DNA of 64,000 nucleotides from Nymphaea colorata (taxonomy: Eukaryota; Streptophyta; Magnoliopsida; Nymphaeales; Nymphaeaceae), in contig NC_045145.1 in assembly GCF_008831285.2 (NCBI RefSeq), positions 12,646,802 to 12,710,801 of the forward strand, given 5' to 3'. The notes beneath the pieces are model-generated. The model made no database searches, was not told the DNA's origin, and saw only the letters and a list, made by a program, of their open reading frames with translations. Below, one piece after another: positions 4,308 to 64,000 of the stretch. Both the position numbers and the translations under genes were made by a program. Position 1 is the first letter of the stretch; each line of letters opens with the position of its first letter.

Positions 4308-5140
4308 AAGAATGGATTGTGACTAGAATCAGAACTTAAATGAACAGAGAAACATGCAACGACAGAGAACAAGGGGTTCTAGGAGAGTTCCATAGAACTT
4401 TATCATGAGCTATGAACAGAATGAATGCAGAGGTTCAACACAGAAGATGGCAGCAGCAAGCAAGCATTGCTTAATCAAGGAAAAACAGGCTCAAACGATG
4501 GCAGGTTCTTGACGTTCTGCCACGGCTTCTCATACACAAGAGCCCTGTAGTGCTTGACATACCCTGCTTTGAGGGCCTTGATAAGCAGTCTGTGGTTGGT
4601 TCCAGCCACCAACTAGCTCTGAGCCTCCACCACCTCTACGAACACAAGGGCTGCTGCTTCATGGTGCTTCTTGTTGAATTCAGCCACCGCAAACTTACCC
4701 AGCTCCTGTACATGCTTGTTGTTCTTCACGTCCGGGATTGGATGGAAACCGCCGTGAGCTGTCACTAAGGAATTGGAAGAAGCCATTAGACAGCGAATTG
4801 AGAAGGGATCAGATCTATGGAGGAAAGAAGGGATAAATTTTGAAATGAGTTAATATATCAGCCAACGACCAACGATGGTCTTGAGAAAGCTGCATGAGCT
4901 CATATTTATATTGCTAATTTGGCACGTTGGGATCCCAAAGCAAACGTCTGGAGGATAAGACATGCAACTAGAAAGAGCGTTTGACCCGTCCTCTTCCTCA
5001 ATTTTCAGCCTTCGCCACTGAGTTGAAATGCATTACGTGGTCAACCTTTCTTTCTTCCTTCCTATGCATTTTAACAATAACCCGTTCTTTCTTTCTTTCC
5101 ATTCTTTATTTAATACTACTTTATATAGTAAATGCTGCTT
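4308..5140. repeat. Duplicated cystatin segment, copy A
   Basis: This segment matches 21455-22400 through the cystatin coding region and both flanks. Matching stretches include the 3' flank (TTCCATAGAACTTTATCATGAG) and the 5' flank with CAACGTGCC and an ATAAATATGAGCTC TATA region (minus strand). It is a dispersed segmental duplication with the two copies in the same orientation, about 17 kb apart. Confidence 0.85.
4475..4786 (-). pseudogene. Phytocystatin pseudogene with a stop in the QxVxG loop
   Basis: The minus-strand reading from the ATG at 4784-4786 to the TGA at 4475-4477 is collinear with the intact cystatin at 21661-21975. It is 104 codons including the stop, with no frameshift. Codon 58 (4613-4615) is TAG, at the position where the intact copy has the Gln of QVVAG, the papain-binding hairpin loop. 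The following residues read LVAG, and the PW of the second loop is kept. Apart from this stop the frame is open, so the loss looks recent. The truncated product would lack the first inhibitory loop, the second loop and the C-terminal half, and should not inhibit. A stop-codon sequencing error cannot be excluded from one sequence. Confidence 0.85.
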
Positions 5141-7466: not shown

Positions 7467-7882
7467 TAGGGGTGAAGACGAGATGAGTGAGCATGAGTTC
7501 AGCCAGCTCGACCTCGGCTCGAGCTTGACTCAGTAGTTACGTGTTGAGCTCAAGCTCAACTCGTTTAAGGCTCAATAAACTCAGTTGAATATATGGACTA
7601 TTATTTGGCCATAAATCGAGTTTGACTAGATTAAGGCTTGACAAACTTGAATGAACTTTTGTAAAAACTACATAATTAATTAAGGTCAATATACAGGCTT
7701 TTTAATTAAAAAATAAGTCAGACATTTAACAATTCAATATACAGGTTTTCAAGCCAAGTCGAGCTTTAACAGTTTGAGAATTAACTCAATTATTTGAACG
7801 AGTCGACTCATGACTCGAGCTCAATTCGTTATGCAAATGACTCGGCTCAAACTCAAATAGCTTGACTCGTTGTTCACCCCTA
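7467..7882. mobile_element. Small hAT-like element (TAGGGGTG ends), 416 bp
   Basis: The ends are TAGGGGTGAA and TTCACCCCTA, a perfect 10-bp inverted repeat. The 8-bp flanks are gtgttggc (7459-7466) and gtgttggt (7883-7890), a target duplication with one mismatch. The subterminal parts are dense in GAGCTCGA/ACTCGA motifs. The same ends and subterminal motifs occur in the larger element at 17439-19271, so the two belong to one family. There is no coding capacity. Confidence 0.85.
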
Positions 7883-10619: not shown

Positions 10620-12114
10620 GATGATGAGGTAGTATTATTTTAATCTAAAAAAAATGATTGTCTTACAGTTCAGAATGATGATTGTACATGGATTTTAGAT
10701 ATTGGGGCATCATATCATGTCACACCATGTAGAGATTTGTTCTTATCCTACAGAGCATGTGATCTTGAAATAGTTCACATGGGCAACAGTGATACTTCGA
10801 AGATTGTTGGGATAGGAAATCTTTGCATTGAGACGAGCACAGGATGCAAATTGACTTTGAGAGATGTGAGATATGTTCTAGATCTTAAAATGAATCTGAT
10901 TTCTGCAGGAAAACTAAGTGAAGATGGGCATTGTACTTTGTTTAGTCAGACAGGTTGAAAACTGACAAAGGGGGTACTAGTATTGGCTAGAAGTAGCAAA
11001 TTTAGCACTTTGTATGGTATGAAGTCTCGAATCAGTAATGTGGTGGTAAATGCAGTTACTGGTGGTACTTCATTAGATTTGTGGCATAAGAGGTTAGGTC
11101 ACATGAGTCAAAGAGAATCAATTTGCTCATAAAGAATAATTTGTTACTAAAGGCAAATGGTGCACAGTTATCTCCTTGTGATCATTGTTTGGTTGGTAAG
11201 TTGCATCGAATTTTCTTTCAAAAAAAATGTTCTTTAAAAACTAAAGATGTTTTAGATTTAGTTTATTCGGATATATGTAGACCTATAAATGTAACATCTA
11301 AAGGTGGAGCATCCTATTTTGTTATATTTATTGATGATGCGTCTAGGAAAGTATAGGCCTTTACAATGAAAAGAAAAGTGAAGTAAGTAGTATCTTCATA
11401 ACTTTTCATGTAGCGGTTGAGCGCGAGACTGGTAAGAAGATGAAGAGACTGTGTACAGATAATAGTGGTGAGTACATAGCATCTTCTTTACGAGAGTATT
11501 GTCTAAAGTATGATATCAGACATAAAAAGACAGTTCTCTATACTCCACAACATAATGAAGTTGTAAAAAAGATGAATATAACTATAATTGAGAGAGTTTC
11601 AAGTTTGCTATCAAGCATTAAGTTGCCTAAGTATTTTTGGGCAGAGGCAATGCGTACTGCAGTTTATTTAATAAACAGGTCTCCTTCAGTATCTCTAGAT
11701 AGAGATATTCCACAGAGAGCTTGGTCAGATGAAGAGGTTAAGTATGATCACCTCAGAGTTTTTGGTTTCAAAGCTTTCATGCATGATCCTAAAGAACATA
11801 GAACCAAACAAGATGATAAAGTTATTCATCTAATATTTCTTGGTTATGCAGATGATGAATTTGGTTATACGTTATGGGATCCAAAGAATGACAAAATCTA
11901 TAGGAGTCGTGATATTGTTTTCAGAGAAGATCAGACGATTGAAGATGTCATAGATGATAAACAGTCAGGTGTGAATGCTAATGGTGTTCATGAGCCAACC
12001 TCTGCAGGACCTGAAGAATTTTCATTTGAGGATGGTGAGACTGATGAACATGTAGATGAAGAAGAAAGAGAGGCAAATGTGCAGTATACAGATGGCAGCC
12101 CTGGCCTGTTTTAG
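10620..12114 (+). pseudogene. pol: Copia protease and integrase region, inactivated, reverse transcriptase missing
   Basis: The order is that of a Copia polyprotein. The protease motif WILDIGASYHVTP (usual D(T/S)GAS) is near 10690-10728. The pre-integrase block LDLWHKRLGHMS is near 11080-11108. The integrase core has D(L)VYSDI near 11255-11275 and LCTDNSGEY near 11447. The third catalytic segment reads PQHNEVVKKMN near 11545-11578, where families have PQQNGVAERKN, so the catalytic Glu is replaced. Three reading frames are used (breaks near 10960 and 11110, another near 11350). Coding ends at 12114 in the linker after integrase. No reverse transcriptase, RNase H or 3' LTR follows, so the element is 3'-truncated. 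Confidence 0.9.
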
Positions 12115-14883: not shown

Positions 14884-15082
14884 GCACAGAGAGTTGACAC
14901 CAGGAGAAAATAAAATAGAGACTAACTGCCTAACTATTAGCCCTCGCTTCGACCATTGCACCAAGTCCCTTGGGGATAGGCACATACATGTTTGCCTTTT
15001 CCTCTTGAAAGGGGGCGAGGGTGTGTCCTTAGTGGCATCAGCCACAGCCCACCAAATTCTAAGTACTATTAAAAATTTCATA

Positions 15083-15119
<37 letters not shown>

Positions 15120-15247
15120 TATATATATATATATACACACATATGCAAGTCTGATTTTGCTATAGTTTTTTGGCATTATGTGAGCTCTTTATTTATTATT
15201 GTTCAAAATCATGAGATTTAGTCATGCATATTGCATAATGTAACATC

Positions 15248-17073
15248 TAGGGATGCACACGAGCCGAGTCGAACCCGAGCTTGCCCAGCTCGAGCTCGAC
15301 TTGACTCAAAGAGCTCGAACTCGAACTCAAGTCGAGTTCCCCAACACGGGCTCGAGCTCGACTCGTTTAACTCGTTTATTCCTCCGTCGGTGCTGCTGAA
15401 GAGCACGGTGATCATCAGCGGCGTCCTTTGGACAAAGCCCATCTTCTTGTCGGAGGACCCGCCGTACCAGAGGCTGGGGCTCATAGATGGCGGAGCCATC
15501 CTCTTCGACGGCCTGCTTGAACCCAATCAGGTCATCGGAGGCCGAGAGCTCCAGAAGAGCGGAGCAGGCGGTAACCTTGCTGCTACCAACGCAGAACCGT
15601 GTGTCCTCCATACCACAACACAACGCCTGTTGCTTCAAGCCCTCTGGTCCTCCGCACATACACGACCCTCTTACCCTGCACAAGAAACCTAATCAACTAA
15701 ACCATCAAAAGAAGACACTCAAACTCCTTTTCCCCTCTTCTTCTTCCCCAAACAAGAAGGGGGTAAACAGGCAAAAAGACTTGCAGTTTTCTACCACAGA
15801 GGAACAGAATGGTAAAGAGTGAAGGAGGAAGATGGTGGGTGGTGCTCTGGCGAAATTATAAAAGGAGCTTCGTGCACCTAATCCACAATGGACAGGAAGG
15901 AAAGAAAACGATAAAAATGAAAAATTGATGACCGCCATCTCTTGCTTACCCAGACAACCAATCCATTGAGCAGAAAAGCAAGAAACTTTACTTTCTAGAC
16001 AACCAAAGCACTAAATAACGCAAGACCACCATGAGAAGGAATTATAATTTCACGATTTGTACCAAGTTTTAAGAGACACACATAGATGGCTTACCTACCG
16101 AAGAGTTGAGTCTATGATCAAAAGCGAGAACGGGAAGTTCTCTCTCCTCTTCTGTATCTGCCTGTCAGATGCGTGCTCACACTGGCTTCCTTTCTCCCCT
16201 TCTTCTACCTCAAGAGTGGAGGGAAGCAGGGAGGAACGGACACTTCCTCCCTCGCTCTCCGCCTCCATTCTTCCTCCTCCCTGGTATTTTCCTCCTCCCA
16301 CCTTCCCTTCTTCCTATGCCGCCTTTCCTCCTCCCTCCTTCCCTTTTTTCTCCTCCCTTGCCTCTGAGGAAGAAAGAGAGGGAAAGAGGGGATGCCATCA
16401 CCCGTAGCAGCTACGTCTCATGCCAAAGGAAAAAGAAGGGGAAAGAGGATAACCCTAATATTTTCTCCATTCCGCCTCTTCTTCTTCTTTTCCTTCTTCT
16501 TCATTTTTTGTTTATGTGTCATCCATGGCTACGTCCAGCAAATATGCCCTTGAAGAAAAAGAAGGACAAGAAGAAAGTGGAAATACATAGAAAAAACCAA
16601 ATAACTTATCTTTAATTTTCCGGATGGACAGACTCACTGGTGGCTAGAAACCGCCGGATGCCGCCGAACGCTGCCACAGGGCGGTGGTGGTGGTCAAGGA
16701 ACTTCATGGTTGGAGAAATAATGGAGAGCACAAAGACAGAGAAGAGAAGGAGAAGTCTAAGAGACCGAGAGAGGGAGGGTCGGAGTCGGAGAGAGGGAGA
16801 ACGGAAAAAGGAAAAAGGAAACCTAAACTGAAAAGGAGTTACGAGTTTCCCACCTGAGAAGTGCTGAACTGGTTTTTTTAAAGCCGGTATTTTAACTAAT
16901 CGAGCCGAGTCGAGCTTTAACGAGTCCACTTCAGTGAACTCGAACTCGGCTCGATTAGTTAAACGAGTCGACTCATGAACTCGAGCTTGACTCATTTAAC
17001 TAATGAAGCAACTCGAACTCGCTTACGAGTCGAGCTTAAACGAGTCGAGCTCGAGTAGCTCGATTCATTGTGC
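15248..17073. mobile_element. hAT-like gene-carrying element, copy 1 (right tip lost)
   Basis: It starts TAGGGATGCA at 15248, preceded by gtaacatc (15240-15247). The interior is the same as copy 2. Its right end breaks off at CATTGTGC, lacking the final ACCCCTA, because the tandem-duplication junction falls there. It therefore should not be mobile on its own. It carries a fragment of a CCCH zinc-finger gene at its left side (minus strand). The remaining open frames are compositional. Confidence 0.9.
15381..15659 (-). pseudogene. Captured N-terminal piece of a CCCH zinc-finger/ankyrin gene, copy 1
   Basis: Minus strand from the ATG at 15657-15659 (MCGGPEGLKQQ). It reads through CSALLELSASDDLIGFKQAVEE, then, after a one-base shift at the GGGG run 15476-15479, through PSLWYGGSSDKKMGFVQRTPLMI. 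These blocks match the N-terminal region (start of the ankyrin part) of plant CCCH proteins of the SZF1/SZF2/AtC3H29 type. In that family the order is LLELA..DDL.GFK..VEE, then DEPSLWYGR, then KMGFE.RTPLMI. The CCCH fingers are absent. A plausible 3' splice acceptor (TTTCTTGTGCAG) precedes the ATG. The fragment stops abruptly at the element's GAGCTCGA-rich end. This copy has Tyr where copy 2 and the family have Asp before EP. Confidence 0.8.
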
Positions 17074-17264
17074 GCACAGAGAGTTGACACCAGGAGAAAA
17101 TAAAATAGAGACTAACTGCCTAACTATTAGCCCTCGCTTCGACCATTGCACCAAGTCCCTTGGGGATAGGCACATACATGTTTGCCTTTTCCTCTTGAAA
17201 GGGGGTGAGGGTGTGTCCTTAGTGGCATCAGCCACAGCCCACCAAATTCTAAGAATTATTAAAA

Positions 17265-17332
<68 letters not shown>

Positions 17333-17438
17333 TATGCAAGTCTGATTTTGCTATAGTTTTTTGGCATTATGTGAGCTCTTTATTTATTATTGTTCAAAAT
17401 CATGAGATTTAGTCATGCATATTGCATAATGTAACATC

Positions 17439-19271
17439 TAGGGATGCACACGAGCTGAGTCGAACCCGAGCTTGCCCAGCTCGAGCTCGACTTGACTCAA
17501 AGAGCTCGAACTCGAACTCAAGTCGAGTTCCCCAACACGGGCTCGAGCTCGACTCGTTTAACTCGTTTATTCCTCCGTCGGTGCTGCTGAAGAGCACGGT
17601 GATCATCAGCGGCGTCCTTTGGACGAAGCCCATCTTCTTGTCGGAGGACCCGCCGTACCAGAGGCTGGGGCTCATCGATGGCGGAGCCATCCTCTTCGAC
17701 GGCCTGCTTGAACCCAATCAGGGCATCGGAGGCCGAGAGCTCCAGAAGAGCGGAGCAGGCGGTAACCTTGCTGCTGCCAACGCAGAACCGTGTGTCCTCC
17801 ATACCACAACACAACGCCTGTTGCTTCAAGCCCTCTGGTCCTCCGCACATACACGACCCTCTTACCCTGCACAAGAAACCTAATCAACCAAACCATCAAA
17901 AGAAGACACTCAAACTCCTTTTCCCCTCTTCTTCTTCCCCAAACAAGAAGGGGGTAAACAGGCAAAAAGACTTGCAGTTTTCTACCACAGAGGAACAGAA
18001 TGGTAAAGAGTGAAGGAGGAAGATGGTGGGTGGTGCTCTGGCGAAATTATAAAAGGAGCTTCGTGCACCTAATCCACAGTGGACAGGAAGGAAAGAAAAC
18101 GATAAAAATGAAAAATTGATGACCGCCATCTCTTGCTTACCCAGACAACCAATCCATTGAGCAGAAAAGCAAGAAACTTTACTTTCTAGACAACCAAAGC
18201 ACTAAATAACGCAAGACCACCATGAGAAGGAATTATAATTTCACGATTTGTACCAAGTTTTAAGAGACACACATAGATGGCTTACCTACCGAAGAGTTGA
18301 GTCTATGATCAAAAGCGAGAACGGGAAGTTCTCTCTCCTCTTCTGTATCTGCCTGTCAGATGCGTGCTCACACTGGCTTCCTTTCTCCCCTTCTTCTACC
18401 TCAAGAGTGGAGGGAAGCAGGGAGGAACGGACACTTCCTCCCTCGCTCTCCGCCTCCATTCTTCCTCCTCCCTGGTATTTTCCTCCTCCCACCTTTCCTT
18501 CTTCCTATGCCGCCTTTCCTCCTCCCTCCTTCCCTTTTTTCTCCTCCCTTGCCTCTGAGGAAGAAAGAGAGGGAAAGAGGGGATGCCATCACCCGTAGCA
18601 GCTACGTCTCATGCCAAAGGAAAAAGAAGGGGAAAGAGGATAACCCTAATATTTTCTCCATTCCGCCTCTTCTTCTTCTCTTCCTTCTTCTTCATTTTTT
18701 GTTTATGTGTCATCCATGGCTACGTCCAGCAAATATGCCCTTGAAGAAAAAGAAGGACAAGAAGAAAGTGGAAATACATAGAAAAAACCAAATAACTTAT
18801 CTTTAATTTTCCGGATGGACAGACTCACTGGTGGCTAGAAACCGCCGGATGCCGCCGAATGCTGCAACAGGGCGGTGGTGGTGGTCAAGGAACTTCATGG
18901 TTGGAGAAATAATGGAGAGCACAAAGACAGAGAAGAGAAGGAGAAGTCTAAGAGACCGAGAGAGGGAGGGTCGGAGTCGGAGAGAGGGAGAACGGAAAAA
19001 GGAAAAAGGAAACCTAAACTGAAAAGGAGTTACGAGTTTCCCACCTGAGAAGTGCTGAACTGGTTTTTTTAAAGCCGGTATTTTAACTAATCGAGCCGAG
19101 TCGAGCTTTAACGAGTCCACTTCAGTGAACTCGAACTCGGCTCGATTAGTTAAACGAGTCGACTCATGAACTCGAGCTTGACTCATTTAACTAATGAAGC
19201 AACTCGAACTCGCTTACGAGTCGAGCTTAAACGAGTCGAGCTCGAGTAGCTCGATTCATTGTGCACCCCTA
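17439..19271. mobile_element. hAT-like gene-carrying element, copy 2 (complete, 1833 bp)
   Basis: The ends are TAGGGATGCACA and TGTGCACCCCTA, an inverted repeat with one mismatch. The preceding 8 bp (17431-17438) and following 8 bp (19272-19279) are both gtaacatc, a perfect 8-bp target duplication, diagnostic of hAT-type insertion. Subterminal arms (about 130 bp left, 190 bp right) are dense in CTCGAGCTCGA/GACTCG motifs, as in the small element at 7467-7882. Between the arms lies foreign sequence: a CCCH-gene fragment followed, in minus direction upstream, by CT-rich 5'-leader-like DNA. No transposase is encoded, so it would depend on one in trans. Confidence 0.9.
17572..17850 (-). pseudogene. 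Captured N-terminal piece of a CCCH zinc-finger/ankyrin gene, copy 2
   Basis: Same fragment and same one-base shift (GGGG at 17667-17670) as at 15381-15659, so the shift predates the duplication. This copy keeps IDEP, as in the family, but reads SDALIGFK where copy 1 and the family have DDL. Each copy has thus picked up its own change since the duplication. It carries no zinc finger, and whether it is transcribed is unknown. Confidence 0.8.
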
Positions 19272-20265
19272 GTAACATCCTTATGACATGCCACCAAGAT
19301 TGAACACATGGAGGACTGTAAACCCTACGCTTATGGGTCCTCGGGTAATAGGCACACTCTTCCAATTAATCAACTTTAAAGATTGGGGTATATTTAATGA
19401 AACATTTGTTCTAATATACCATGAATCTGCCTTATAGTGTCCTTATTGCCAGACAACCCTTGAAGGGTCAGCCTTAATCCAATTGCCCAAGGATATAAAC
19501 ATCTCTCCATCTCTCACTCAATTTTTGCAATTCATAATGTCACATGTGTACACTACCCTCAAGATTTACAAAGGAATATAGATCAAGACAAGAGAAGTAG
19601 AATTGATCACACTCAATGACACATGCGCATGCTATTGAGTCTGCCTCTTGATAATTAAAAAACTATAAACTAAGATTGATATAAAGATTAATAGTCCCTT
19701 TGACATGATCCAAACCCCTAAGCCAAACTGCATATCTCGTTGGCACCATTGATTTGTTCGACCACGAGAATGAGTTTTGCATTCTGTTTCATGTACATAA
19801 CGAGCGTACGCTAAATGTGGACCCTACTATCAATGAATATTTATTTCAATGCCCTAACATTATATGTGCACAATAGATATTCTTAATCATGTCATTGTCT
19901 CATACCTCTGTCATTACATTATACCAATTATTTCATACTCCTAACATTATCAGACCCTTGTCGTTTTCCCATACACATTATTTCATACATCTACCATTAG
20001 CATACCCTTCTCATACCCATTATCGCATGCCCCCATCATTATCATACTGATGTTGTTTTCTCATACTTTTATCATTATCATATATCCATAGCATGTGAGA
20101 TGATAACAGTGAGTGACATGAGATAAAATAAGGGTATGAGATAATGTGTATGAGATAACAACATATGTATGAGGTAACGACAGAGGTATGAGAAAAAGAC
20201 ATAAGCGGGACAAAAAAAACACGAAGACGATTCTTTTCCGCTCAGATTGGTATATTGGTCATAAC

Positions 20266-20870: not shown

Positions 20871-21660
20871 GCCCCTTTGGATAAACTTTTTTTTTTTAAT
20901 GCATATTATTTGTCGTTTTGATGTTGAAGGAAGTACATATTGGCTGAAACCAAAATCAATCGGGCCAGGGTCAGGAAACCAGCATATGTACCCATTAACG
21001 AAGGAGGGCCATAAGACCAGCTTGATCTCGGAGAAAAGGCGATTCAATCAGTTAAGGGATGTCAATGCATTAATTGGATTCAAATCACATATGCTCTTTC
21101 ATGTATCTGTTTCTTTGCAAGTTCATGTATTCGGATTTATATACTAATGAAAAAAAATCTAGATCATATTTGAATCTGAATCACAACCCTAATCTAATTT
21201 TTGAATTGGATCCAAACTGTAAGATATGTTAAGATACTGCATAGATATTGGGTATGAGATATTTATTTAAAACTATACCTTTTCTGAAATTGAGTCGGAA
21301 CAAATATTTATTTAAATCTGATCCCGATCCGATGTCATTGTTTAAGTTCCAATGTGAAGCACGACATGCACGCAACATAATTTAATTAATTTGGACAACT
21401 ATACAACACTTTCAGGACACTAAATATTAAACAATGCCAAACGACTTATTACAAGATCACCAGTGAATGAATTGTGCTTAGACACAGAACTTGGACGAAG
21501 AGAGAAACATGCAATGACAGAGACCATGACGAGTAACGACGTGGGGTTCTTGTAGCGTTCCATAGAACTTTATCATGAGCTGTGAACGGAATGAGTTGTG
21601 AACGGAATGAATGCAGAGGTGCAACACGGAAGATGGCAGCAGCAAGCAAGCAATGCTTAA

Positions 21661-21975
21661 TCAGGGGAACACAAGCTCAAACGATGCCCGGGTCTTGACT
21701 TCCTCCCATGGCTTCTCATACACAAGAGCTTTGTAGTGCTTGACATACCCCGCTTTGAGGGCCTTGATCAGCAGCTTGTAGTTTGTTCCCGCCACCACCT
21801 GGCTCTGAGCCTGCACCACCTCGACGAACACTAGAGCTACTGCTTCATCATGGTGCTCCTTGTTGTACCCTGTCAGCGCAAACTTACCAAGCTCCTGTAC
21901 ATGCTTGTTGTTCTTCACGTCCGGGATCGGCTGGAAACCGCCGGGAGCTATCACTGAGGATTTGGAAGAAGCCAT
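21661..21975 (-). CDS. Phytocystatin (cysteine proteinase inhibitor), intact
   Basis: A single-exon frame of 104 residues from the ATG at 21973-21975 to the TGA at 21661-21663. The cystatin signatures are present in order. A Gly pair lies near the N-terminus (residues 12-13). The plant-specific helix block is ELGKFALTGYN (28-38; consensus LARFAV-x-x-x-N). The first hairpin loop is QVVAG (59-63), and Pro-Trp is at 89-90 in the second loop. Together these wedge into the active site of papain-family proteases. The length is that of the short, single-domain phytocystatins without signal peptide or legumain-inhibitory extension, so it is probably cytosolic. It may regulate endogenous cathepsin-like proteases or act in defence. 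A TATA-like box lies upstream at 22126-22133. A broken paralogue lies at 4475-4786. Confidence 0.93.
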   Translation of the reverse strand: MASSKSSVIAPGGFQPIPDVKNNKHVQELGKFALTGYNKEHHDEAVALVFVEVVQAQSQVVAGTNYKLLIKALKAGYVKHYKALVYEKPWEEVKTRASFELVFP

Positions 21976-22125
21976 TAGGACAGGGAATTGAGAAGGGATC
22001 GGATCTAAGGAGCAAAGAACTCAGAAGCAAGCTCGGGTTATCTGGTTTCTGTTTCTGGATAATAATGAATCGAGTTATATGTCAGCCAACGATGAATGAT
22101 GGTCATGAGAAAGCTGCCTGAGCTC

Positions 22126-22133
22126 ATATTTAT
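22126..22133 (-). promoter_or_regulatory. Probable TATA box of the cystatin gene
   Basis: On the minus strand CATAAATATG lies about 150 bp before the cystatin ATG. The equivalent ATAAATATGAGCTC is kept in the pseudogene's 5' flank, so promoter duplication came with the gene. Confidence 0.5.
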
Positions 22134-22399
22134 GGGACTGATTTGGCACGTTGGGATCCCAAAGAAAGCTCTGGAGGATAAGACATGCAAGTAAAAAGAG
22201 CGTTTGACCCGTCCTCTTCCTCTTGCTCAATTTTCGGCTTCCGCCGTCCTTCCGAAGATCACACTGCACACAGCAAATATGTTAATTGGTCAACCTTTCT
22301 TTCCTATTTCCATTTTAACGGTACTTCATTAATAATATTTGTTTCTTCGCATATTAATACTGCTTCATTTAGTAATATAGTAAATGATCATGTATTGCC

Positions 22400-49100: not shown

Positions 49101-50581
49101 AACTTTCCTCTCTCTCAATCAATCCACACCAGTCCCCCAGAAGAATTGATCATCTGAAAAATAGTTAGTGCCGGGAAATTTCATTAGGAGTTGAACCTGT
49201 TGCCACAGTCAAAATAGGTGGTTTAATGGTATTTTGAGGAAAAAAAATTGTGCACTTTGAATTTTCATCCAGAAAATTGATCGAATTTTGGTGGTTTCAG
49301 CTGGCAATATCTCTTGCCTGGCGCCATAATTACTTCCCTGGAAGGACGTATTAGCAGCCAGTCACATGGCAGGGACATTTATGACCATTTTCAAAATGGG
49401 GTAAATTTTATGCATTACATACGCCGCATGGGGCCAAGTAGTATCTGATCCTTGTGGAACTTATTGCTGGGAGCGATAATGAGGAATCATTTTCTTTAAT
49501 CAATTTTCATACTGCACTGAAGTTTTGGTGCGCCCACAATGCATGTAGTACAAGTTTGTAGAGTTATGTTGATTCATCATTACGTACTTGAACTTTTCCT
49601 TTTTCTGGTTCTTTACTTGTCTTATTGGTTATATCTTATTCTTTGGAGATGCTTCGTTCCTTTTCTAAAAGTTTCTGTCTTATCTTTGCTGATGATGCTT
49701 TCCGATTGCTGTATTGGCTGTCTTCTCCCCCCCCCCCCCCCTCCTTTTTTTTGTGATCTTTCTTGCTTTCTGTTCTTTAATATTTGCTGTAATATGAACA
49801 AATATATTCACAGTTTCCGAGCATAAATTATCAACAAATAAATATAAACACATTCTTAAGTGGCTTGCATTTGTTTCCCAGCTGGTGACTTATATACATT
49901 TGACCTTGTCTCAATGCCAGGTCTATGATGTGACCAGTTACTTAGATGACCATCCTGGTGGAGATGAAGTGTTGCTCTTAGCAACTGGTATTTCTTCCTT
50001 CTCTTTCTTTTTCAAGTTAGCTACATCAGGCCGAGCATGCTGGGATCAGTTTATGAAGAACTGTATTTAACGGAAAATGGGTTCTGATTAACATTAAGGC
50101 ATGTTAAACATCTGCAACGAGTGTAGTTCAGCAACCCTGATCTTGGCAGGATGGCTGTTACGATACCCAAAGAACTCGTCCGCCAGCCATGGGTGTCTGT
50201 TGTTTCTGTTAAATTGCCAGCATTTAATTAAGTCTTGAGTTAGAATTTGCTGTCGATTGGACATATCTTAATGAACCATCCTGGTACGACGGGGAAGTTT
50301 TAATGCGAGACTTGTTGTATATTATAGGTAAAGATGCAACCGAAGAGTTTGAAGATGCAGGACACAGTGCTGAGGCAAGAGAAATCATGAAAGAGTACTG
50401 CATAGGAGAGCTGGACCCATCTGCTTCTGTTTCTGAGGGACAGAACGCCACAGAAACTCGATCTCTGGCGGGAACTCTGGGCTTCATAAACAATTACAAG
50501 CAATCGCTTTACTGGGTTCTTCCGGTAGCCATTGCTGGCGTTGCTGTGTTTGTGAGCTGGGTGTACTTGAAGAAGAAATAG
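43144..50581 (+). CDS. Cytochrome b5, ER tail-anchored, 3 exons
   Basis: Exons: 43144-43230, 49921-49987 and 50328-50581, with GT/AG borders and phases agreeing throughout, giving 135 residues, the usual length. The haem-binding core has the first axial His in DDHPGGDE (His40) and the second in EDAGHSAEA (His64). The sequence starts [21 protein letters not shown], like family members (EVS.HN...DCW). A single hydrophobic segment at about 112-132 followed by KKK is a C-terminal ER anchor. The protein passes electrons from NADH-cytochrome b5 reductase to desaturases, hydroxylases and some P450s. The exon 1/2 border just before VYDVT and the exon 2/3 border in ATG|KDAT match plant relatives. Intron 1 is unusually long (6.7 kb). 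The gene converges on B12D, with 180 bp between stops. Confidence 0.95.
43231..49920 (+). other. Intron 1 of cytochrome b5, 6.7 kb
   Basis: AT-rich and without clear coding sequence. An open frame on the minus strand at 47797-48042 contains a non-repetitive stretch ([18 protein letters not shown]) that looks protein-like, but I cannot assign it. It may be an old gene fragment. The open frames at 47263-47739 are GA-rich and compositional. There is a poly-C run at 49727-49741. Confidence 0.6.
50261..50312 (+). other. Possible relic of a second exon 2 in cytochrome b5 intron 2
   Basis: The sequence TCTTAATGAACCATCCTGGT, then a GAAGTTTTA block, resembles exon 2 (ACTTAGATGACCATCCTGGT, then GAAGTGTTG), the HPGG haem-loop region. 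The relic has small indels and a stop, so it is not an alternative exon. It sits 15 bp before exon 3. Chance similarity is possible over so short a length. Confidence 0.4.
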
Positions 50582-50760
50582 AATCCAGGAAATTTTGATA
50601 ATTATCCATCTGTTGGGAGTTCAAATTTTTGGCCACAACATTCATAACTTCTTTGAAAATTTTGGTAGCACTGTACTACATAATATGGGCATCAAATCCA
50701 TTGAATCAAATCATAACGCGCACACACAAGCACGTACGTGTGTTTTACATGTTAATTACT

Positions 50761-50973
50761 CTATTTGTTGGAATCGGAGGAGAAGAAGCTGTTAATGGCA
50801 GGCATGACCTCCGGCGGACGTGTTCGGAGAAATCTGCGGAAGCCATGATCCGCGTACCTCTCTCCTTCTTCATAGTTCTCAAGAACAGCAGTCGCGCGGT
50901 GTTCCTTATTGACTCTGCGAAAGAACATATAATGGTGTTATTTACTGTAAAATATAATGATAAGATTCTGCTA

Positions 50974-51037
<64 letters not shown>

Positions 51038-51410
51038 TGAGAGAGTTGACGAACCTGACGTCGGGGTTCATGAAGAGATTGCGGGTGAGGGAGAAGACGC
51101 AGATGCTGCTTACGAAACCCATGGCAGCCAGTAGCGGGTACACCTGTTCCCAACCCCAGATAAGAAAAATGGACATCACCAAATGTGATCAGAATCATAT
51201 AAAAAAGAGAAAGAGAGCATAGAGATCTACAAACAAAGAGAGAGAGAGCATGGCGAAAGGAGGGATGATTGACTGCACCATGCCACCACCTTATGCCAAG
51301 CGTCTCTCTCACCACCACAGCCGGTTTCTTCCTTCCATGGGGGCACCATAACACAGAAAAAGATTAGAGAGACAGAGAGAGAGAGAGACCTCCGGTTTGA
51401 GCCAACGCAT
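50761..51410 (-). CDS. B12D-family small membrane protein, copy 1, 3 exons
   Basis: Exons (minus): 51390-51410, 51055-51143 and 50761-50914, 264 nt in all, giving 87 residues. The phases fit exactly. It starts MRWLKPEVYPLLAAMG and has one hydrophobic stretch (about 9-27). The conserved LTRNLFMNPDVRVNKEHRA block follows, then ENYEEGERYADHGFRRF and a C-terminal P-VMPAIN-FF. B12D was first known from barley aleurone and germinating seed and is linked to mitochondria, senescence and hypoxia. Its molecular role is not settled; it resembles the small NDUFA4/MLRQ-type subunits of mitochondrial complexes. Introns begin with CT-rich tracts. Copy 2 at 55726-56344 differs at only four residues (V38I, G61A, R67Q, S83T). 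Confidence 0.93.
50978..51036. repeat. (TA)n(GA)n microsatellite in B12D-1 intron 2
   Basis: It is on the donor side of the intron and absent at the same place in B12D-2, so it arose or was lost after the duplication. Confidence 0.95.
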
Positions 51411-53721
51411 GGTGATTGGTTGCCTTCCTGCAAAATCTCAAAGCTGTATCGATTTGATATGAAAAGGGTGTCCTCTGCGTGGATATTTATATGGCTTCTC
51501 TCCATAGGGAGAATGTTGCCCCGTAAACGGGTCGATCTGAAATTCCTGTGGGCTCACTCAGTCAACCCCGCCATCATAAACCAGGAGCTATGCACCCATG
51601 GTTTCTTCGTTATTCAAACTCTGTCGATCTTTCTATCTTTCTGTATAAATATTTTTTTATATAAAAGAAAGTCCCTAAGATCTTGGCACGAAGGTGCCGG
51701 TAAAGCCAAGTTGAGATAAGGCTTCACAAGCGGCCCTTTTAGCCGCCTTTATGTTTTACTTACATGGCAAAAACTCTCAATAATCATTGTGAAAGATAAT
51801 AACGCCTAAATTTCGATGGCTGCAGTATCTTCAAATGTCAAATTAATGTCATAATGAATTTAGTGATTTTTCAACATAAATAGACATTTTATTTTAGCTA
51901 AAGCCATCTTCAAAATCTGAACTAAATCTGTTTGTTTAATTGTGTAAACACTTACAAATAGTTCAAGAAAAGCTCTTTATCTCCCTCTATATATAGTTAT
52001 GTTGCACAACTCAAATCATTTAATATCTTGAGGGAAAATCACTGTTCTATCTTAAATAAAATCGGTTTTTTATATTAACAATTTGTTACATAACATGTCT
52101 ACTATATAATTAATTTCATTTCCCTACATTAGTAAGTAGTAACATTCTATAATTGCACGGGGCAAACTTGCAAGTCATTCTTGTGAAAAAAATCAATGGG
52201 TGTCGATAACTACCATGTGTTCACGATGAGACATGAGAGATCCAAATTAACTAATAAGCAATAACTAACCCTTGACAATGTTTATCATGAATAATCGATT
52301 TTTTTTAGCTAAAATAATTGAAAATCTGAGGTAAAACTATAAAGTTCAATTGGTTTAGCACTTTTTAAATCATAACAATTACATTATAAATTCATTAATT
52401 TAAGAAATTGAATATTTACAAAATTTCACTTGTGTCAGAGCTTGTCACGTGGTGTGCTGGAAATCTGCTTCGACTCTTGAATACAAGAACAAAGAAACAA
52501 TAAGCTTTTCGTTATAAACAATGTTGTTAACGGAATCGAGTCAAAGTTTTAAATGGTGACGTTTTTCTCAAGTGTAATATGGTGAGCTTAAAAAAAATAC
52601 AATAAATTTTTAAAAATATTAAAAACTAAAAATAAAGAAAAAATAAAATAAGTGAAAACTAATAACACATTAAAAGATAAGTAGATTCACAACAAATGAA
52701 AAATGAAAAAAAAACTCTTGGCATTAAAAAACTAAAAAAAATGAAAAAAAGTAAAAAAAAACGAAAAAACACGTTAAAAACACGTTAAAAACGATTTTTT
52801 TTTTACATTTTTTTTCAAAAAAAATGTTATTTTTAAGAACTTATTTACTTGTAATTATTTTTCATTTAGTTAAAAAAATGAATTTATTCATATTTTTGAC
52901 TTGACCGTTTAAATCGGGCAGGTCATCCATGGGCCCGCTTTCTATTAATCGGGATGAGCTTTGAAAAAGGACGAAAGTGATATCACGGACAGCGACGGTG
53001 GAACTCTGTTTTCCAGGGATAACGATAAGACCTTCGAAAGCAGTGGAGACATGATTCTTTTTTGGGGGCCAAGAAAACTTTTCATAACGGTTTTTTATAG
53101 TTTTCCAAATTTTCATTAGGATCAAAGTATGCTTAGGAGAGTTATGAGATCAATGGATGGGCAAGATGGTTAATTTTTGTTTCGACTCTTAGGGATGCCA
53201 ACTTCTTCTTATTGTAAAAAAGGTAGATATAAAGCATAACAAAGATATCATCGACATGTACTCTAGAGATATTATATGACATACACACAAAGGTAGAGAG
53301 AGAGACTCTATGTAGGAGCTGATTTTTTCCTTGAAGTTCTTTTTTTTTTCAGTTATATAAATACATTTTGTGTAAAACTACCACATAAATATGATTGCTA
53401 CTGACCCCCTTGACTTGATCTTATCAGTTAATTGGACAAATAAGCTTACTATCAAAGCACAAATGTTGTTTTTTTGTTGCTAAAACCTCTCAAAAAAACC
53501 AACATGTAACTAATGATCCTAGATTATTTTTATGATACAGGAGTGAAGCTAGGGGGCAGTAGGGGCCCCTAGTGGCGGAGCCATAAAATTTTCGTTGAGG
53601 GGCACTAGCTAATCTCTCGTTTAAGAGGATGATTGCTTGCAAGACACTGACTTAAGCCTCATGTGAGCACCATATCTGGATGGACTTAACTGAACATAGG
53701 TCTAACTTAGTCCAAATACAT

Positions 53722-55299: not shown

Positions 55300-55309
55300 G
55301 GTAGATGGA

Positions 55310-55520
55310 CAAGGGAAGAGGTTTGAAGATGCAAGATACAGTGCCGAGGCGAGAGAAATCATGGAAGAGTACTGAATAGGAGATCTGGGCCCATCTGCTT
55401 CAGTTTCTGAGGGACAGAACGCCACAGAAACTCGAGGAGCAATCGCTTTACTGGGTTCGTCCGGTAGCCATTGCTGGCGTTGCTGTGTTTGTGAGCTGGG
55501 TGTACTTGAAGAAGAAATAG
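55310..55520 (+). pseudogene. Cytochrome b5 exon 3 pseudogene
   Basis: A diverged copy of 50340-50581 with no exon 1 or 2 upstream. TGC of the KEYCIGE segment is TGA here (55374-55376), a nonsense change. About 40 bp coding for the linker before the membrane anchor ([13 protein letters not shown] region) are deleted after ACTCGAG (near 55436), which also shifts the frame. The membrane anchor sequence and the final KKK and stop are otherwise kept. It still converges on B12D-2 with about 205 bp between ends. Confidence 0.93.
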
Positions 55521-55725
55521 AATCCAGTAAAGTTTGATCATTACCCATCTGTTGGGAGTTCAAATTTTTGGTTTGGCCGAAACATCCATAACTTCTTTGA
55601 GATTGAAACAGAACTCGAAAATTTTGGTAGCACTGTACTACATAATATGGGCATCAAATCCACTGAAATCAAATCATAACGCGCACACACAAGCACGTAC
55701 GTGTGCTATTACATAGTCAATTACT

Positions 55726-56344
55726 CTATTTGTTGGAATCGGTGGAGAAAAAGCTGTTAATGGCAGGCATGACCTCGGGCGGACGTGTTTGGAGAAATCT
55801 GCGGAAGGCATGATCTGCGTACCTCTCTCCTTCTTCATAGTTCTCAAGAACAGCAGTCGCCCGGTGTTCCTTGTTGATTCTGCAAAAGAACAACATATAA
55901 TGGTGCTATTTACTGTTCAATTCCCCTATATCGTTACCACCATCTTAGTAAAACAGAATGCTAAGATCCTGCTATATACACGCACTATATATACGAACCT
56001 GACGTCGGGGTTCATGAAGAGATTGCGGGTGAGGGAGAAGACGCAGATGCTGCTTACGAAACCCATGGCAGCCAGCAGCGGGTACACCTGTTCCCAACCC
56101 CAGATAAGAAAAATGGACAGCACCAAATGTGATCAGAATCGCATAAAAAAGAGAAAGAGAGCATAGAGATCTAGAGAGAGAGCATGGCGAAGGGCGGGAT
56201 GATTGACTGCACCATGCCACCACCTTATGCCAAGCGTCTCTCTCACCACCACCGCCGGTTTTTTCCTCCCATGGCGGCACCATAGCACAGCACAGAAAGA
56301 GGGATTGAGAGAGAGAAAGAGACCTCCGGTTTGAGCCAACGCAT
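55726..56344 (-). CDS. B12D-family small membrane protein, copy 2, 3 exons
   Basis: Exons (minus): 56324-56344, 55999-56087 and 55726-55879, the same lengths (21, 89 and 154 nt) and phases as copy 1, giving 87 residues. All splice sites are intact and there is no stop or frameshift. The four differences from copy 1 are mild substitutions, and exon 2 differs only synonymously, which suggests purifying selection or a recent origin. Intron 2 is shorter and lacks the (CT)n(TA)n tract of copy 1. The promoter side is conserved for about 300 bp, so expression may be similar. Same inferred role as copy 1. Confidence 0.92.
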
Positions 56345-56729
56345 GGCGATTGATTGGTTTCCTTCCTGCAAAATCTGAAGCTGTATCGATTTCAGCTGTA
56401 AGACATGAAGAGCGTGTGCAGCGCATGGGTATTTATCTTGGCTTCTCTCCATAGGGAGACTTCAAATTCCTGTGGGCTAACGCAGTCAACCCCGCCATTA
56501 TAAACCAGGAGCTGTGCACCCATGGTTTCCTCCTCCTTCAAACTCTGTAAACTCTGTAAGTAAGAATATTTTTTATATAGCAGAAAAGTCCCTAAGATCT
56601 TGGCATGAATGGGACCCCCTTGGCTCCGGAAAGAGATATTTTCGGGGAAGGCGCAGGCGAGTTGGGGAGAAAGTGGACCCCCATCCACATCAGAGGCGAC
56701 GTGACTTTATCCAACTGCGATATGGATAA

Positions 56730-63186: not shown

Positions 63187-64000
63187 CTAAAAACGGGACG
63201 GTGGAGGTGCAGAAAGTGACGGCGGCGGAGGAGAAGAATTGTTCTGGTTCAAGGAAACGTAGTAGCTGAGCGCAGAGTAGACGGTTTGGGCGATGGTGAG
63301 GCCGAGGAGGACGATGGCAGCAAGGAGGGAGAGGAAAGCCCAAGGGCTTCTGAAGTAGGTGTGGATGAGGTTGGCCCTCCAGACGTTGGTCTTCTGCAGG
63401 GAGTAGGCGCCGAGCGCCCTGTAGACCTCGCCGAGCTTGGAGTTGGGGTCGATGGTGACGTCCCTGCTCAGCTCGTTGAACAGCTTGGCCACGGCCTTGT
63501 CGCTGCCGAGCGCGTTCAGAATGATTCCCTTCTTCTGCAGCAGGGCGACGTCCTTATCGGTGTCGATGATTTCGTCCATGAAGGAGACGTAGGCGCTGAC
63601 CTCGATGCCGGCGCCGACGTGCAGCCGCTCGAAGGCCAGCAGGTTCAGCAGTGACGACTCGCTCGTGTCGTCCAGCATGATCCACGGCAGGCTCAGCACG
63701 CCGTGCCTGAACTCGATGTCCTTGAGGCTGTTCGTCTTGCTCTTCGTGAACCGGACTCCCGCCTCGTACAGCTCCGTCACGCTCCTCACCACCACGCTCT
63801 GCTTCTTCCCGTCGACCGACCGATGGAGCCGGACCGGCCCCTCGATCCGACCCTTCCTGTACACGTCCAGTACGTGCAGCCCCAGACCACTGCCGGGGGC
63901 CTTGGTTGCCTCAATATTCAAGGAGAAGAAATCGGCCACCAGTTTGTGCACGTACCCGTCCTCCGACTTGGGCTTCCTCGTCTCCGCCGCCACCAACCTG
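63187..64000 (-). CDS. DUF247 (UPF0481) protein, C-terminal part, runs off the window
   Basis: Minus strand, stop at 63187-63189, open to the window edge (about 270 residues). There is no ATG in the visible part; the first candidate is a TTG, so the true start lies beyond 64000. Family marks are the LHVLDVYRK block, SVTELYEAGVRF, FRHGVLSLPWIMLDD, SLLNLLAFE, VSAYVSFMDEIIDT.KDV.LL and LF.ELS. A C-terminal membrane helix (PWAFLSLLAAIVLLGLTIAQ) follows. After the helix comes a Ser/Pro-rich tail. DUF247 proteins are plant-specific single-pass membrane proteins; members act in grass self-incompatibility (S and Z loci), but most have no known role. Third codon positions are strikingly G/C-rich against the AT-rich window. 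No intron was seen. Confidence 0.92.
   Translation of the reverse strand, partial: RLVAAETRKPKSEDGYVHKLVADFFSLNIEATKAPGSGLGLHVLDVYRKGRIEGPVRLHRSVDGKKQSVVVRSVTELYEAGVRFTKSKTNSLKDIEFRHGVLSLPWIMLDDTSESSLLNLLAFERLHVGAGIEVSAYVSFMDEIIDTDKDVALLQKKGIILNALGSDKAVAKLFNELSRDVTIDPNSKLGEVYRALGAYSLQKTNVWRANLIHTYFRSPWAFLSLLAAIVLLGLTIAQTVYSALSYYVSLNQNNSSPPPPSLSAPPPSRF

Follow-up and report, generated by a model that had tools for sequence, protein, structure and literature searches.

The systems closest to the element described here were reported in three studies, which we take to be those of Du and others on Ds elements of maize, of Gisby and Catoni on Pack-hAT elements of maize and rice, and of Tan and others on animal Pack-TIRs. 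Pack-MULEs move intron-containing gene fragments between their TIRs, and the present element is set apart from these by its superfamily, its short TIR, its 8-bp target-site duplication (TSD) and the hAT transposase found in a relative. In 2011 it was shown that maize Ds elements carry gene fragments with introns and with known donors, and the authors, who found no precedent among hAT elements, called the feature rare (PMC3260210). The maize elements Ds2 and Ds-l4 (Ds2-22, Ds-l4-354) resemble the element described here as short non-autonomous members of the hAT superfamily that have an 8-bp TSD and contain intron-bearing pieces of genes from a different chromosome, and filler can also derive from other transposons in the maize elements (PMC3260210). 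Pack-hAT elements, i.e., non-autonomous TIR elements with host gene fragments, were surveyed in maize and rice in 2022 and were commoner in maize than in rice; this survey also describes large hAT clusters as well as neighbouring copies that mostly have one orientation, a further likeness to the present case (PMC8903248). Comparable animal Pack-TIRs such as Pack-hAT-N8_XT are multicopy, were attributed to template switching with microhomology at the breakpoints and include one tandemly duplicated locus, Ssk-FB4 (PMC8277862).

Compared with the maize elements, the present element differs in that its capture is found at six loci and that a gene piece and a PIF/Harbinger-like piece are fused in one element (PMC3260210). 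Its TIR has 12 bp (TAGGGNTGCACA) whereas that of Ac/Ds has 11 bp. The surveyed Pack-hAT clusters are described in terms of separate local insertions, while the neighbouring copies here arose by a tandem duplication including flanking DNA (PMC8903248), and from the animal Pack-TIRs the present element differs by its plant host and its two-source filler (PMC8277862). The initial annotation of the locus had stated that capture is less known for hAT elements, which is fair in comparison with other superfamilies, but gene capture by hAT has already been published (PMC3260210; PMC8903248). The element belongs to the Pack-hAT kind and combines a two-source filler with several copies of one capture.

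The element was analyzed in a window of 64,000 nucleotides from Nymphaea colorata, in which it occupies positions 17439-19271 (1833 bp, minus strand). Its TIRs TAGGGATGCACA (17439-17450) and TGTGCACCCCTA (19260-19271) are identical at 11 of 12 bases, and the TSD GTAACATC at 17431-17438 is repeated exactly at 19272-19279, so that the initial description as a non-autonomous hAT element with perfect 8-bp flanks was borne out. The left terminal and subterminal arm (17439-17575, minus strand, transposase 3' side) is rich in GAGCTCGA and was delimited by its match to the terminus L071 and by MITE copies, and the right arm of about 350 bp (18923-19271, minus strand, transposase 5' side) by arm copies and its match to the terminus L072. 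The terminal motif occurs five times in the window with at most one mismatch, compared with 0.44 expected, and none of 100 shuffles reaches five. The 5' 17-mer TAGGGNTGCACACGAGC has 348 occurrences in the 408-Mb genome (168 + 180), compared with none for the reversed control, and together with the excess of the terminal motif this assigns the element to a hAT family with many members. This family includes a MITE-like copy of 462 bp with matching GGTTTGGA duplications (L067) and at least 27 right-arm copies without the capture among the best 40 of 1495 candidates scored. The two arms, a gene piece and a PIF/Harbinger-like piece fill the 1833 bp save for short stretches at the joins, and eight of the longest stop-to-stop frames (102-165 codons) gave no Pfam match at E <= 0.1; by composition and frame check the element has no transposase of its own. 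The 8-bp TSD, the short hAT-type TIRs and the related ends of a transposase-bearing element on contig C3 place it in the hAT superfamily. The window also contains an older relative that is MITE-like and shares the hAT type (7467-7882, 416 bp, TAGGGGTGAAGA...TTGTTCACCCCTA), its flanks GTGTTGGC and GTGTTGGT matching at 7 of 8 positions. Another family member, L065, has no match to L063, L064 and L066 past position 382 and may contain a different captured piece.

The transposase-bearing element on C3 is a full-length relative (C3:18643934-18650683) that is bordered on either side by CGTCCATC and has an uninterrupted frame of 699 codons, which contains PF14372 and PF05699 (hAT RNase-H and dimerisation) and whose best PDB relatives are the Hermes transposase; no BED finger was reported in this frame. 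Positions 1-118 of the window element match the terminus L071 at 81% and positions 1617-1833 the terminus L072 at 82%. As the ends are only 81-82% similar and the right TIR of the C3 element, TGAACAGCCCTA, differs from that of the window element, the C3 element is not necessarily the actual helper. Its transposase reads from the counterpart of the right arm toward the counterpart of the left arm, which is why the window element is assigned to the minus strand. PF05699 was found within 12 kb on the inner side of seven of 27 right-arm copies, at 3.9 to 9.1 kb and in the same direction in all seven, and on the outer side of two of the 27, at 10 kb or more; the tally covers the best 150 of 1113 candidates, of which 147 were typed and three on small contigs left out, and the arm copies are the non-capture ones among the matches listed (40 of 1495 candidates scored).

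Between the arms, positions 17576-18427 (minus strand, element positions 138-989) are a captured fragment of the CCCH/ankyrin gene L009 (C5:16132441-16133303), which it matches at 90% over 875 alignment columns. The donor L009, located on contig C5, is intact with 680 codons and presumably of the SZF1/SZF2 type named in the initial annotation, and it has ankyrin repeats (about residues 78-149) followed by CCCH fingers, namely an AtC3H23-type finger (PF25512, 219-252) and a second one (PF00642, 263-284). The fragment consists, all on the minus strand, of a part of the predicted exon 1 and 5' leader (18286-18427, homologous to L009 4660-4804), a predicted intron of 419 bp (17867-18285) and the start of predicted exon 2 (17576-17866), with the ATG at 17850 and donor residues 1-92, the frame being broken in the window copy. 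The predicted splice sites, an AG/GTAAGC donor and a TGTGCAG/G acceptor, are also present in the donor gene, and retention of the predicted intron with both of them indicates that the fragment was copied from DNA. A zinc finger is missing from it, and of the ankyrin region it includes just the first residues. The minus-strand peptide blocks that had been read from the sequence are 89% (donor residues 1-62) and 81% (62-92) identical to the donor protein and, owing to an insertion of one base, lie in different frames; the proposed capture of a 5' leader, an intron and the N-terminal coding start of a CCCH/ankyrin gene is likewise supported by the L009 alignment.

The identity of the donor is clear, since the best pieces of the hAT copies match it at 79-90% between residues 1 and 92, compared with lower or shorter matches of other CCCH genes. 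Two of these match at 55% over residues 161-675, with N-terminal parts at 42-47%, three others match at 67-73% over the finger region, and none of the other CCCH genes matched in the genome reaches donor residues 1-27. The search for the parent gene that had been suggested thus led to L009, and the 9 kb read around this gene contained no hAT arm. A donor query of 1601 bp, chosen to overlap the captured segment and reach beyond it at either edge, matched eight places (all eight candidates scored), of which one is the donor itself and seven are copies within hAT elements, and the matches of the seven copies all end within query positions 227-1108.

The second source is represented by positions 18434-18922 (plus strand, element positions 996 to about 1484), an inside piece of a PIF/Harbinger-like non-autonomous transposon with the relatives L010, L013 and L019 (84% to L010 2542-3001). 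The source is a dispersed repeat of about 1.3 kb with the ends GGGCCTGTTTGATGGGC and its inverse. Two of the three copies with ends read are flanked by TTA (L013, in which the first bases of the left end are missing) or TAA (L019), the third (L010) being not clear; the TTA/TAA duplication and the GGGCC-type TIR are as expected for PIF/Harbinger-like elements. The captured piece starts about 195 bp inside the repeat. The core, described initially as non-repetitive, is made of two pieces, the gene piece and this dispersed repeat, and the view of all of 17572-18830 as gene was rejected, as its right part belongs to another transposon. At the join of the PIF/Harbinger-like piece with the right arm, AGAGCACAG is common to L010 and two of four arm relatives and absent from the other two, the join between gene and PIF/Harbinger-like piece has short filler, and that between gene and left arm shows nothing clear.

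The gene fragment is present in seven copies at six loci, including a pair in the window, so that more than one mobilised copy carries one and the same host gene fragment with an identified donor between TIRs, as in Pack-TYPE and Pack-hAT elements. The undeleted copies beside the window pair are L014 (C9) and L015 (C2), and the order of gene piece, PIF/Harbinger-like piece and arm is identical in these four. L016 and L017 have a common deletion of element positions 792-1183 and L018 lacks 692-1146, with both source pieces still present. As both deletions span the join of the two sources, the chimera is older than the deletions; for the same reason the state of L016 and L017 was rejected as ancestral. 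The TSD is perfect for the window element (GTAACATC), L014 (CCTGATAG), L017 (GGTCCCAT) and L018 (TGGGAAGG), that of L015 matches at 7 of 8 positions, which is weakened by the fact that its right flank is another hAT-like end, and in L016 the right end is gone. L018 retains donor-like sequence that was lost in the other six copies, including about 20 bp of extra gene at the left join, and in a tree with the donor as outgroup it is the first branch with moderate support (82/85); support inside the family is weak, one of five inner branches being starred, that of the window pair. Among the 651 columns for which five or more copies have sequence, all copies deviate from the donor in the same way at 20, a single copy deviates at 82 and some copies at 39, and the copies also have indels in common relative to the donor. 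These common differences and indels point to one capture that was followed by spread. The search for sister elements proposed in the initial annotation thereby gave both the copies at six loci and the MITE-like family copies.

Directly upstream of the element in the window sits the sister copy (15248-17073, minus strand), in which, according to the alignment and the junction print, the right terminus stops 7 bp short. The two copies belong to a tandem direct duplication of 2.19 kb, whose first unit (14884-17073) and second unit (17074-19264, both plus strand) are 99.2% identical over about 2191 bp and include 364-365 bp of flanking DNA. Except for AT-repeat matches, no other genomic place for this flank was found among the best 40 of 335 candidates scored, and there is no microhomology at the tandem joint. 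An independent insertion of the upstream sister was rejected because the two copies have the flank in common. The pair has intact outer ends (15248 and 19271) with GTAACATC on both outer sides (15240-19279), which is the layout expected of a composite transposon, and it is a possible composite that may be mobile as a whole. The duplication may also be an assembly artefact of two haplotypes differing by 0.8%, against which the position of the junction, 7 bp from the element end, argues weakly.

We regard it as highly probable that the element is a Pack-type hAT as far as identity and spread are concerned, the route of acquisition being a separate matter. Its ends and TSDs, the donor, the second source, one common architecture and a transposase-bearing relative are all observed. 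In the explanation proposed here, an ancestral hAT element would have kept both ends while its inside was replaced by DNA of two unrelated sources, the 5' end of the CCCH/ankyrin gene and a part of the PIF/Harbinger-like transposon, and template switching during double-strand gap repair in or at the hAT element would have brought these in. Full-length relatives would presumably have supplied the transposase that then moved the chimera in trans to six loci or more, and internal pieces would later have been lost from some copies. Because one genome contains the donor, the second source, the joins, the copies and a transposase-bearing relative, the capture becomes readable step by step, as DNA-level copying, two-source filler, spread and later internal deletions. 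Gap repair as the acquisition step is favoured with some reserve, as the candidate microhomology AGAGCACAG is missing from two of the four arm relatives and the other joins have filler or nothing clear. A composite mechanism, in which two hAT elements flanked the donor piece and their outer ends were mobilised together, has been put forward for the Pack-TYPE elements of every DNA superfamily (PMC8903248) and would fit the tandem pair in the window with its intact outer ends and matching GTAACATC; we hold it to be unlikely in view of the 9 kb around the donor without a hAT arm, the joining of two unrelated sources inside one element and the start of the PIF/Harbinger-like piece about 195 bp inside its source repeat and not at its end. 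That an ordinary pseudogene is by chance flanked by a hAT element, with which the broken frame of the window copy would agree, is hardly credible, as none of the seven copies has homology reaching beyond its hAT element, as these copies occupy six loci of which five have a TSD of their own, and as the predicted intron retained in the window copy speaks against a processed pseudogene. An extension of the CCCH homology past the TIRs, named by the initial annotation as the observation that would tell against capture, was looked for with the 1601-bp donor query and was seen in none of the seven copies.

Returning to the chimeric element, the captured fragment and the transposase of the full-length relative are read in one direction. 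The promoter of the family would be expected in the right arm (18923-19271), on the 5' side of the transposase, and, given this colinearity, transcripts that the element itself starts would have the sense orientation of the donor gene. The earlier expectation of antisense RNA is not supported by this orientation and would need another promoter. The window copy and the donor have exact 21-mers in common (23 in predicted exon 1, 41 in predicted exon 2 and 108 in the intron), through which small-RNA action would be possible. A regulation of the donor, in which sense or antisense RNA of the element would give rise to small RNAs silencing the CCCH gene, could draw on these matches and seems quite improbable to us, the sense direction of the fragment disfavouring its simple antisense version.

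The captured frame is kept in two of the seven copies, L014 (residues 1-86) and L016 (6-92), and broken in five. Coding divergence from the donor is 7.2-10.7%, compared with 6.3-8.4% for non-coding sequence, and is not the lower one in any of the seven copies. The ratio of non-synonymous to synonymous changes relative to the donor is 0.9 to 2.2 in all seven copies, below the neutral value of 2.9, and the pooled tip changes of six copies comprise 51 non-synonymous and 27 synonymous ones where 75% non-synonymous changes are expected (P = 0.066, not significant and based on a crude estimate of the ancestor). Selection on the captured fragment is thus not established, the low non-synonymous ratios giving a weak hint, and a host function of the element is probably nil. 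The idea that the captured ORF has been maintained to encode a short novel protein of about donor residues 1-90 finds some agreement in the two intact frames, in the ratios below neutrality and in the pooled tip changes, but we consider it very remote given the non-significant test with its crude ancestor, the coding divergence that is nowhere below the non-coding one, the frame broken in five of seven copies and a content of no zinc finger and the ankyrin edge only. In a more far-reaching reading, the right-arm promoter would drive sense chimeric RNA of the PIF/Harbinger-like piece and the CCCH leader, intron and N-terminus at several loci, transcripts and small RNAs would act in trans on the stress regulator, and the tandem pair in the window would be a composite able to move and to take along another 365 bp of host DNA, in effect a stage, caught in progress, by which gene-carrying transposons grow; this combination, too, is quite improbable.

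Further features were observed in the window. Two stretches, 4310-5016 and 21465-22245, are 79% identical, and the second one contains an ORF for a cystatin-type proteinase inhibitor on the minus strand (21664-22020; PF00031, PF16845). The ORF at 11347-12111 has a retroviral-polymerase SH3-like domain (PF25597) and is probably part of a copia-type retrotransposon. A dispersed duplication is formed by 50332-51692 and 55303-56609 (83-85% identical), and the ORF at 50228-50578 includes a partial cytochrome b5-like domain. A DUF247 plant gene (PF03140) at 63190-63999 runs off the window edge.
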